Shown one piece after another: positions 50,460-54,302 of a stretch of DNA of 64,000 bases. A model generated the notes under the pieces. The model made no database searches, had not been told where the DNA came from, and saw nothing but the letters and a program-made list of their open reading frames with translations. The stretch is from Myxococcota bacterium. Its GTDB lineage: Bacteria; Myxococcota_A; Bradymonadia; UBA7976; UBA1532. The stretch spans positions 1-64,000 of the forward strand of contig CAUJDF010000067.1 in assembly GCA_963169045.1 (NCBI GenBank), written 5' to 3'. The position numbers were made by a program, and so were the translations under genes. Positions within the stretch are counted from its first letter, which is position 1, and each line of letters begins with the position of its first letter.

Positions 50460-53400
50460 TCAGCGCGGCGCCACTTCGCGGACGAAGATGAACCACTGGC
50501 CGGCGGCGTTGTCGTTGAAGCCGCACTTGGCCTGGGCGTCGTCCTCGCCCCAGTCGGTGCCGTCGAGCGGGCCGTCCATGCCGCGGTCGTCGAAGTCGAG
50601 GGTGAAGTCGCCGTCGTCGCCGCAGAAGTCCTCGCCCTCCATCGCGCCCGAGTCCCACTGGTCGCCGAGCTCGCGGACCTCGCCGCTCACGTTGTTCCGG
50701 CGCGCGACCGGCGGCACCGTCTGGCCCTGGCCGTCGAGCTCCTCGAAGCAGCTCGCCTCGTCGTTCGGCGCCGCCGCCCACTCGCCGTACCAGCCGACGT
50801 CGTAGAACGACAGGTCGACCGTCAGCGGCGCGTCGGCCGGCCCGAGGGCGTCGCGGCAGGCGAAGCGCACGTCGAAGCGGTCGGCGAGGCCGGCGACGCC
50901 GCCCCAGATGCCCTCGTGGGCGTTCTCGGGGGCGAGCGTCGTCAGGTCGTCGTACCAGGCCGACGACTGGTCGTTCAGGGTGCCGAGCGCCGTGCTGGCG
51001 ACGAGCGTCCAGCCGCCGCCGTCGGTGGTCATGTCGCAGTAGACGTTGACCACGCCGCCTTCGGGATCGATCAGCGGGTAGATGCCGCTCTCGTCGTTGC
51101 CCGCGTCGAGCGCCGCCTGGCACGAGGCGAAGAACGGGCACTCGAGGCCCTCGTCGATCTCGCCGTCGCAGTCGTCGTCGATGCCGTTGCACGCCTCCTC
51201 GGAGGGCTCGCCCGGCGCGACGCCGCACACCGCCTGGGCGGCCTCGTTGCACTCGGTGACGCCGCGGCGTCGGCAGGCGCCGAGGCCCGCCACGCAGGGC
51301 GCGCCGACGCCGAAGTCCTCGTCGGCGCGGCCGTCGCAGTCGTTGTCGAGCTCGTCGCAGGCCTCCTCGGCGGGCTCGCCCGGGGTGGCGGTGCACGACA
51401 GCCCGCCTTCGAGCGATCCGCCGCGGACGTAGACCACGCGCCGGAAGCCGGGCTCGAACGGGAAGTCGTTGCCGCAGCGGTAGCCGCCGTTCAGGTTGCC
51501 GTCGCCGGTGTGCCAGCACATGCGCCGCTCGCCGTCGTCCTCGCGCGTGTCGCACGACTGGCGCTCGACGCCCGCGCCCTCGGGGGCGAAGCCCCACGAC
51601 CACGAGTCGTTGAAGTACCAGTCGACGCCGTTCGCGGTGTGGACCGCGTCGAGCTCCATGCCGGTGTCGAAGATCACGTCCTCGCGCGCCGCCATCGCCG
51701 CGAGCTGCAGCGCGTCGCCGTCGGCGCGACCGCAGCCGATGAGCATCACGTCGCCCTGGCACCGCCGGAGCACGTCCTCCACCGGCGGCTCGAAGTCGCT
51801 GAAGTCGCCGCTGAAGCACTCGACGAAGCCGCCCGCGCGGATCTCGGCCAGGGGCACGTCCTGCCGGATGCCCGCGAAGGCGAGGAACGCCGGCGCGCCC
51901 GGCTCGCACGTGAGCACGCCCTCGGCGGCGCACTCGCCGAGGCCGACGACGCAGGGCTCGCCGAGACCGGCGACGTCGTCGATCGCCTCGTTGCAGTCGT
52001 CGTCCTCGCCGTTGCAGATCTCGACGGCGTCATCGTTGAGCGTCGGCAGGCACAGCATCTCGCCCTCGGGCGTGCACGCGCGCTCGCCGTGGAAGCAGCT
52101 CGCGAAGTCGCCTTCGCACGCTCCGCCGATGTCGAAGTCCTCGTCGGCGACGCCGTCGCAATCGTCGTCGCGCGTGTTGCAGGCTTCGGCCTCGGGCTCG
52201 CCCGGCGCCGCGCTGCACACGAGCCCGACGCCCACCTGGCCGGCGCGCTGGTAGATGACGCGGCGGTACTCGCGGCCGAAGACCTGGTTGCGGCCGCAGC
52301 GGTAGCCGCCGTCGAGGTGGCCCTCGTTCGTGTGCCAGCACATGCGCTGCGCCCCGTCGCCGCGGTTGCGGGTGTCGCACGAGTTGCGCTCCACGCCGGC
52401 GCCGCCGGGCGCGAAGCCCCAGGACCAGGCGTCGCTGAAGTACCAGTCGACGCCGTTGGCGGTGTGCACGGCCTCGGCGTCGACGCCCACGTCGAAGATC
52501 ACGTCCTCGCGGCGGCCCATGGCGGCGACCTGGAGCGCGTCGCCGTCGCGCGGACCGCAGCCCATGAGGAGCACGTCCTCGCCGCACGCCTCGAGGATCT
52601 CGGCCACCGGCGTCTGCGAGCCGAAGTGGCCCTCCCAGCACGGCCGGAAGCCGCCGCGCTCGAGGTCGGTCAGCGGCAGGTCCTCGCGGACGCCCGCGAA
52701 GTCGAGCGCCACCGGCTCGCCCTCGCCGCACCGGGCCACGCCCTGGCGCGCGCACTGGCCGAGGCCGGCGGTGCAGGCGTCGCCGAGGCCCGGCACGTCG
52801 TCGACCTCGCCGTTGCAGTCGTCGTCGATGCCGTTGCAGGTCTCGGGGCCCCGCACGTTGGGCACCGCCTCGCACACCCGCTCGCCCTCCGGCGTGCAGC
52901 GGCGCTCGCCGTGGAAGCAGGCCTCGAACTCGCCCTCGCAGACCTCGCCGACGCCGAAGCCCTCGTCGACCTCGCCGTCGCAGTCGTCGTCGACCGTGTT
53001 GCAGGTCTCCTCGGCGGGCTCGCCCGGCTGCCCTTCGCAGGTCAGCGGCGGCGGGCCGTCCAGGGGGCCCGGGCGGTGGTAGACCACGCGCTCGTACTGG
53101 CCGAACTCGAAGGGCGTGTCGAAGCCGCAGCGGTACCCCGGGTCGAGGTTGCGGCCGTTGACGTGCCAGCACATGCGCAGCTCGCCCTGGTCCTGCGCGA
53201 CGTCGCAGCTGTTGCGCTCGACGCCGCTGCCGGCCGGGGCGAAGCCCCACGAGGCGTTGTCGCTGTAGTAGAAGTCGACGCCGTTGGCGGTGTGCGTCGC
53301 GCCGGGATCGTCGCCGACGTCGAAGATGACGTCGGCGCGGTCGGCCATCGCCGCCAGCGTGAGGGTGGGGGCGCCGGCGGGGCGGCAGCCGATCAGCAGC

Positions 53401-54302
53401 ACCTCGCCGTTGCAGCGCGCGAAGACGTCGTCGATCGGCTGGCCCGCGTCGCCGAAGTCGCCGGCGTAGCAGGGCGCGAAGCCGCCGGCGAGCAGCTCGG
53501 CCTCGGGCACGTCCTGGCGGATGCCCGCGAAGTGCAGGCCGCCCGCGCCGTCGCCGGCGGCGTTGCACGCGACGACGCCGGGGGCGGCGCAGGCGCCGAC
53601 GCCGACGGTGCAGGGCGTGCCGAGCTCGCCGGCGAAGTCCTCGTCGGCGACGCCGTCGCAGTCGTCGTCCATCTCGTTGCACGCCTCGCGGTCGGGCGCG
53701 ATCGGCTGCGCGTCGCAGACGACGCGGCCGTCCTCGAGGCAGACGCGCACGCCGCGCGCGGCGCACGCGAACTCGCCGACCTCGCAGGGCTCGCCGATGG
53801 CGAGCTCCTCGTCGACGCGGCCGTCGCAGTCGTCGTCGATCTCGTTGCAGCGCTCGTCGTCGGGCACGCCGGGCTCGGCGTTGCACTCGGCGCGACCGTC
53901 TTCGCTACAGACGATGCGCCCGCGGACGAGGCAGGCGCCGACGCCCGCCTCGCAGGCGTCCGTCACGCCGAGGCCCTCGTCGATCTGACCGTCGCAGTCG
54001 TCGTCCTCGAAGTTGCAGCGCTCGGCCGCCGCGGGGATGCAGCCGCCGGCGCCGCCCTCGCCACCCTGGCCGCCGGCGCCGCCCTGACCGCCGGCGCCGC
54101 CCTGGCCGCCCTCGCCGCCCTGACCGCCGGCGCCGCCCTGGCCGCCGGCGCCGCCCTCGCCGCCTTCGCCACCCGCGCCGCCGAGGCTGCCGCCGCCGCC
54201 GTCGCCGCCGCCGCCGGACTCGCTGCCGTCCCCACCGTCACACGCCGTCGCGGCGAGCGCGAGGGCCAGCCAGCCGACCTGACCGAGCCTTACGATTCGC
54301 AA
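50460..54302 (-). CDS. Giant lipoprotein: MopE-type repeats, three novel ~170-residue domains, fibrinogen-like end
   Basis: 1280 residues if started at the TTG at 54302, which follows GGGAGAG and opens the lipobox VGWLALALAATAC. A Gly-rich linker (GGAGGQGGAGGQGG-like) leads to alternating MopE-like repeats (CNEIDDDCDGRVDEELAIGE and relatives). Interspersed are three copies of a ~170-residue domain beginning FAGIRQDVP or FAGVREDLP, with VLLIGC, DVIFD, VHTANGVDWYF, SWGFAP and MCWHTN as shared anchors. The last ~210 residues start SCQAALDAGNDESGIYPLID and contain VYCDMTTDGGGWTLV, the signature of fibrinogen-like domains. It is a predicted surface protein; what the repeated domain does is unknown. 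An earlier start in the same frame would bury the signal. Confidence 0.85.
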   Translation of the reverse strand: MRIVRLGQVGWLALALAATACDGGDGSESGGGGDGGGGSLGGAGGEGGEGGAGGQGGAGGQGGEGGQGGAGGQGGAGGQGGEGGAGGCIPAAAERCNFEDDDCDGQIDEGLGVTDACEAGVGACLVRGRIVCSEDGRAECNAEPGVPDDERCNEIDDDCDGRVDEELAIGEPCEVGEFACAARGVRVCLEDGRVVCDAQPIAPDREACNEMDDDCDGVADEDFAGELGTPCTVGVGACAAPGVVACNAAGDGAGGLHFAGIRQDVPEAELLAGGFAPCYAGDFGDAGQPIDDVFARCNGEVLLIGCRPAGAPTLTLAAMADRADVIFDVGDDPGATHTANGVDFYYSDNASWGFAPAGSGVERNSCDVAQDQGELRMCWHVNGRNLDPGYRCGFDTPFEFGQYERVVYHRPGPLDGPPPLTCEGQPGEPAEETCNTVDDDCDGEVDEGFGVGEVCEGEFEACFHGERRCTPEGERVCEAVPNVRGPETCNGIDDDCNGEVDDVPGLGDACTAGLGQCARQGVARCGEGEPVALDFAGVREDLPLTDLERGGFRPCWEGHFGSQTPVAEILEACGEDVLLMGCGPRDGDALQVAAMGRREDVIFDVGVDAEAVHTANGVDWYFSDAWSWGFAPGGAGVERNSCDTRNRGDGAQRMCWHTNEGHLDGGYRCGRNQVFGREYRRVIYQRAGQVGVGLVCSAAPGEPEAEACNTRDDDCDGVADEDFDIGGACEGDFASCFHGERACTPEGEMLCLPTLNDDAVEICNGEDDDCNEAIDDVAGLGEPCVVGLGECAAEGVLTCEPGAPAFLAFAGIRQDVPLAEIRAGGFVECFSGDFSDFEPPVEDVLRRCQGDVMLIGCGRADGDALQLAAMAAREDVIFDTGMELDAVHTANGVDWYFNDSWSWGFAPEGAGVERQSCDTREDDGERRMCWHTGDGNLNGGYRCGNDFPFEPGFRRVVYVRGGSLEGGLSCTATPGEPAEEACDELDNDCDGRADEDFGVGAPCVAGLGACRRRGVTECNEAAQAVCGVAPGEPSEEACNGIDDDCDGEIDEGLECPFFASCQAALDAGNDESGIYPLIDPEGGVVNVYCDMTTDGGGWTLVASTALGTLNDQSSAWYDDLTTLAPENAHEGIWGGVAGLADRFDVRFACRDALGPADAPLTVDLSFYDVGWYGEWAAAPNDEASCFEELDGQGQTVPPVARRNNVSGEVRELGDQWDSGAMEGEDFCGDDGDFTLDFDDRGMDGPLDGTDWGEDDAQAKCGFNDNAAGQWFIFVREVAPR

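Follow-up and report, generated by a model that had tools for sequence, protein, structure and literature searches.

We analysed a 64,000-nucleotide stretch from a Myxococcota bacterium (assembly GCA_963169045.1, contig CAUJDF010000067.1, positions 1 to 64,000; the whole stretch is hereafter the window), in which a minus-strand gene at 50460-54302 encodes a putative surface lipoprotein carrying three copies of a domain of ~157 residues. The domain can be named at the level of fold, as TLDc-like, but not at the level of sequence, and no prior description of it was found in the literature searched. Based on structure models, it very probably has the TLDc fold, which is known from proteins inside eukaryotic cells. 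We favour, with reasonable confidence, an overall reading in which this is a divergent extracytoplasmic TLDc-like domain serving as an interchangeable recognition knob on stalks of MopE-type repeats; the binding role itself is proposed more tentatively.

Predicted fold of the repeated domain

An AlphaFold2 model of copy 3 was built from an alignment of 55 rows, namely the three window copies and 52 copies from reference-genome loci (locus L062 was excluded as a fragment). The model reached a predicted local distance difference test score (pLDDT) of 95.9 and a predicted template modelling score (pTM) of 0.91, in line with the stable fold that a preliminary description of this DNA had suggested. 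VIA-align was run on the top 1000 matches from Foldseek, and the TLDc chains occupied the top 6 rows with Z-scores of 5.1-5.6, root-mean-square deviations (rmsd) of 3.6-4.0 and 109-120 aligned residues. These include Rtc5 (Z 5.6, rmsd 3.6, 120 aligned), NCOA7-AS (Z 5.2, rmsd 3.7, 109 aligned) and mEAK7 (Z 5.1-5.2, rmsd 3.9-4.0, 115-118 aligned), and the first row after them is an Rhs protein with Z 3.8 over 54 residues.

A second model was made for the most divergent member, an Opitutales copy that is 27% identical to copy 3 and is missing all six of the conserved cysteines (49-row alignment, pLDDT 88.5). TLDc structures (NCOA7, mEAK7, Rtc5, Skywalker and Oxr1) again came first, filling the top 9 rows with Z 4.4-5.4, rmsd 3.8-4.5 and 114-127 aligned residues, and the Z-score then falls from 4.4 at the last TLDc row to 2.1 at the next, unrelated fold. 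As the two alignments share most rows, the models are independent by query and not wholly by evidence. In PMC8329711 the TLDc domain is described as a pair of N-terminal helices with two antiparallel sheets that together contain ten strands, and the order of elements in the models (helix, strand, helix, strands, last strand) agrees with that description.

The preliminary description had called the domain one without a known name. This holds for sequence families, as scans of Pfam, NCBIfam and PHROGs with 55 members found no credible family for the domain, but no longer at fold level, where both models match TLDc best. The best NCBIfam result (0.0022, an esterase model, 2 of the 55 members) and the best PDB sequence match (E 0.018, a cytochrome, three weak repeats) are at chance level, and TLD was absent from the hmmscan matches of 18 and of 55 members. 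The domain falls below the gathering cut-off of the Pfam TLD profile PF07534 (24.5 bits); since PF07534 misses the copies, the domain is not filed as a Pfam TLD member. A literature search, with subscription papers and preprints outside its range, found no description of this bacterial family, and the TLDc literature, in the portions available, describes the domain in eukaryotes.

PF07534 does have matches in Myxococcota (13 of 235 genomes, none from the window's family among those searched). Some of these genuine PF07534 domains (L093-L112) lie in frames of ~6000 amino acids (aa) that also contain lectin-like stretches and repeats of the MopE-like kind. A bacterial TLD profile was made from 20 of 25 PF07534 matches, those with loci, and it recovers solved TLDc proteins (mEAK7 at E 5e-10). 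Compared with these 20 domains, the profile of our family scored 19.7 (hhalign P 0.024); the alignment keeps register through the first strand and helix and places Cys24 and Cys43 on the cysteines of the TLD 'W.LCY' and 'KC' motifs. Column-permuted decoys attained this score in 6/400 and 6/400 trials (5/200 in an earlier run), and decoys lying near the diagonal did so in 0/400 trials in the TLD-permuted arm, the sole arm with that count. A global hhalign run aligned the ends only and was uninformative, and the best single hmmsearch match was L054 with E 0.0035, an E-value for a set of 78 sequences. The profile similarity to bacterial TLDs is suggestive and short of significance.

Several results weigh against the TLDc assignment and the role built on it. 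Foldseek gave no significant match in the PDB (best E 0.37 for copy 3 and 0.13 for the Opitutales model, for which mEAK7 at rank 21 and Skywalker at rank 40 were likewise not significant), and VIA Z-scores of ~5 lie under the safe level of the tool, for which Z <8 can mean a common arrangement. PF07534 finds no copy in the window's own genome at E <= 10, its single match there (11.2 bits) lying elsewhere than the copies, and the hhalign probability is just 1.5-2% (P 0.024 and 0.034) with an aligned block of 26 columns. With the window queries used, no conserved neighbours that would support a binding role were found across 36 loci. The non-significant Foldseek result, the low Z-scores and the failure of PF07534 on the domain would also suit a beta-sandwich family that is new, has only converged on the overall shape of TLDc and is still an adhesive or recognition module. 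We regard this as unlikely, because two models of such distant members each single out TLDc, with a clear drop in Z after the last TLDc row of the Opitutales model, and because the profile signal is in register with two cysteines at matching sites. The separation and coverage of the TLDc rows count against a mere common arrangement here. Foldseek of the copy-3 model against BFVD gave no significant match, and PRY-SPRY and sialidase rows in Foldseek were dropped at template modelling scores near 0.2.

Conserved residues and distribution of the family

With copy 3 as the query in its own genome, the other two window copies were recovered at E 1.9e-62 and 7.3e-59, which establishes the repeat; the three are 59-61% identical to one another. 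The size is closer to 157 residues than to the ~170 given earlier. Among the motifs first listed, three hold exactly in every copy (FAG[IV]R[QE]D[VL]P, DVIFD, SWGFAP), VLLIGC varies by copy (VLLIGC/VLLMGC/VMLIGC), HTANGVDWYF is found in copies 2 and 3 whereas copy 1 reads HTANGVDFYY, and MCWHTN is found as such in copy 2 (MCWHVN/MCWHTN/MCWHTG).

Conservation was assessed over 89 distinct near-full copies, obtained from 169 domain hits after removal of duplicates and of rows with >=25 gaps. All six cysteines are present in 85 of the 89; two copies from phyla that differ by label (L048 and L086) have the pattern CCCASC, with Ala and Ser for the fourth and fifth cysteine, and two copies of the Opitutales type (L061 and L131) are without any of the six. 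Cysteines that vanish two at a time or as a complete set suggest three disulfides rather than metal ligands, and the joint loss of the fourth and fifth cysteine suggests that Cys112 pairs with Cys124 (copy-3 model numbering), with Cys24-Cys43 and Cys52-Cys138 as the likely remaining pairs; we infer the bonding from these patterns.

A metal-binding domain with the conserved Cys and His as coordinating residues had been hinted at in the preliminary description, and it would be in keeping with six conserved cysteines, with a frequent histidine and with the 'putative metal-binding' label that Pfam gives to the adjoining MopE repeats. The 89 copies speak against it: the cysteines disappear together while the modelled fold persists, the two histidine columns vary (His in 75/89 and 80/89 copies, the 'WH' histidine missing in 9/89), and no Cys/His cluster is kept in all members. 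We consider it very improbable.

Four polar residues (model numbering) are invariant or nearly so, with Asp116 and Arg125 in 89/89 copies, Asn89 in 87/89 and Arg140 in 86/89; they may be part of a site or have a structural role. TLDc is short for 'domain catalytic', and with these residues and one host that is a subtilase (L041, where the protease is a separate domain) it would fit an extracellular enzyme, an alternative to which we give little credence as the tandem array and the swapped tip domains suit binding better. The ligand binding suggested in the preliminary description is plausible, and in our analysis it ranks as the most likely, though putative, function, with a metal role unlikely.

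The window's own genome holds eight copies on six contigs, i.e. five extra copies on five contigs besides that of the window. At E <= 0.001 the domain occurs in 13 of 57 genomes (its own plus relatives), including 11 of 13 in the window's own family, and in 27 of 377 genomes across the phylum, the 13 counted in. Culturable Nannocystis is among the carriers. In reference genomes, 59 pattern matches yielded 36 loci (L027-L062), mainly from Myxococcota; the others come from Wenzhouxiangella, Arenimonas, an 'Epsilonproteobacteria' metagenome-assembled genome (MAG), Dadabacteria, Binatia and Opitutales, and MAG labels could be wrong for single loci. Around the Opitutales locus the domain was found in 2 of 288 genomes, and around Wenzhouxiangella in 1 of 274, the query genome itself. 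No relative was found in viral contigs (58 pattern matches) or in the plasmids and phages searched. The domain is a true family that is rare and sporadic outside Myxococcota.

The tree of the 89 copies groups those of the window in a single clade (support 97/89), which indicates that the array arose by duplication within this lineage; the repeat units of ~275 residues share 52-54% protein identity and 68-71% DNA identity. At L028 and L029, by contrast, the four copies pair by position in the tree. The copy at L044, from a MAG labelled Rhizobium, groups with the Arenimonas copies, so this bin is probably contaminated or mislabelled.

Protein layout and host proteins

The minus-strand open frame spans 50460-54353 (1297 residues), and an in-frame TTG at codon 18 places the start at 54302, the end coordinate given previously. 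The protein beginning there, MRIVRLGQVGWLALALAATAC, has a lipoprotein-like signal that was read by eye from the translation and codons, and we infer a lipid-anchored protein at the cell surface. After the signal come a Gly-rich linker and three MopE-type repeats; the domain then occurs in three units, each ending in two more such repeats, and the protein closes with a fibrinogen-like GGGWT domain (Table 1). The setting of the copies between MopE-like repeats was confirmed with PF11617 (Cu-binding_MopE), which scores 94.6 bits (cut-off 27) over 9 stretches. The C-terminal domain passes NF040941 (47.8 bits, cut-off 30, aa 1077-1118) and PF00147 (28.5 bits, cut-off 22).

Table 1. Features of the putative lipoprotein gene, in window coordinates.
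Feature	Position	Strand	Basis
Whole gene: putative surface lipoprotein, three tandem units of TLDc-like domain and MopE pair, C-terminal fibrinogen-like domain	50460..54302	-	frame, translation, TTG codon
Signal peptide to lipobox-like ATAC	54240..54302	-	by eye, translation and codons
Gly-rich linker, GGAGGQGG repeats	54039..54239	-	translation
Three MopE-type repeats preceding domain 1	53640..54017	-	PF11617; cores aa 113, 169, 225
TLDc-like domain copy 1	53061..53540	-	family search and alignment
MopE-type repeat pair after copy 1	52797..53003	-	cores aa 451, 506
TLDc-like domain copy 2	52233..52709	-	family search and alignment
MopE-type repeat pair after copy 2	51975..52181	-	core aa 725; second, degenerate, ~aa 780 by eye
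TLDc-like domain copy 3 (used for model)	51411..51887	-	family search, alignment, AlphaFold2 model
MopE-type repeat pair after copy 3	51150..51359	-	PF11617; cores aa 999, 1055
C-terminal fibrinogen-like GGGWT domain	50463..51146	-	NF040941, PF00147

In other hosts the domain occurs with MopE, DUF4215/myxo_disulf_rpt, acid_disulf_rpt, TSP_3, DUF11, DUF7151, IPTL-CTERM and subtilase domains, partners which indicate that the hosts are extracytoplasmic. It is often last in the protein, and single-domain relatives do exist: L049 and L061 are small secreted proteins with the domain as the only apparent globular part. A purely structural spacer or knob with no specific ligand would fit a domain housed in long repeat proteins whose composition varies, and is improbable in our view, given the many near-invariant residues kept over 89 distinct copies, the frequent C-terminal tip position and its place as sole apparent globular domain in these small proteins.

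Elsewhere in the window, a second large MopE-repeat frame (25014-30929, minus strand, 1972 aa) has three Laminin_G_3 stretches (86.7 bits), and several bacterial TLD domains in Myxococcota likewise come after MopE-like repeats. Both would fit a shared type of stalk on which the binding knobs can be exchanged. In the proposed arrangement each copy would be a divergent extracytoplasmic relative with the TLDc fold, in which N-terminal helices accompany a sandwich of two beta-sheets, here with three putative disulfides to hold it. The lipid-anchored protein would carry these domains, with the MopE-type DxDxDG repeats as rod-like spacers keeping them off the cell, and the domains and the terminal fibrinogen-like domain may be knobs that bind a surface ligand, be it on another cell, on prey or in a glycan matrix; the presence of three copies would provide avidity.

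Six window proteins or domains were used as queries against the 36 loci (the methyltransferase query was in the wrong frame and so in effect does not count, and the major facilitator superfamily query had an upstream extension). The GGGWT domain alone matched, at L031, and the idea of a conserved operon was dropped. At L132 (G000:C62), a Cys-rich stretch with no Pfam match lies between a GGGWT and a TLDc-like domain (aa ~1520-1680 of a 1864-aa frame) and may be another unnamed module.

Comparison with known systems

TLDc proteins are important in neurological disease and for the control of the V-ATPase, and the molecular role of the fold is debated. A secreted bacterial version without a V-ATPase partner would offer an evolutionary outgroup for TLDc and a model that is both simple and stable. 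It would also put a name to a module that occurs in numerous surface proteins of Myxococcota, today annotated by their repeats alone.

Within the same protein, the MopE repeat (PF11617) flanks every copy and is a short spacer repeat distinct from the repeated domain. The GGGWT domain (NF040941) at the C-terminus is likewise an extracellular module, but a separate one, to which the repeated domain gives no match.

The TLDc domains of OXR1, NCOA7, mEAK7, TBC1D24/Skywalker and Rtc5 (PF07534) are the best fold match of the two models, with a fitting order of elements. In contrast to these, the window domain is predicted to be extracytoplasmic, has three putative disulfides and scores under the PF07534 threshold, and a V-ATPase partner would be unexpected outside the cell. 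The TLDs of Myxococcota share with it the phylum, in several cases a MopE-like host and a C-terminal position, and two cysteines at matching places, but they exceed the Pfam cut-off and carry the GGGHD and E.EV[WY] motifs, both missing from the window family. A bolder and rather doubtful extension is that the family is a deep, separate bacterial branch of TLDc, adapted to the exterior by three disulfides, and that, together with the Myxococcota TLDs, it may reflect a fold that began or diversified in bacterial extracellular recognition before its use with the eukaryotic V-ATPase.
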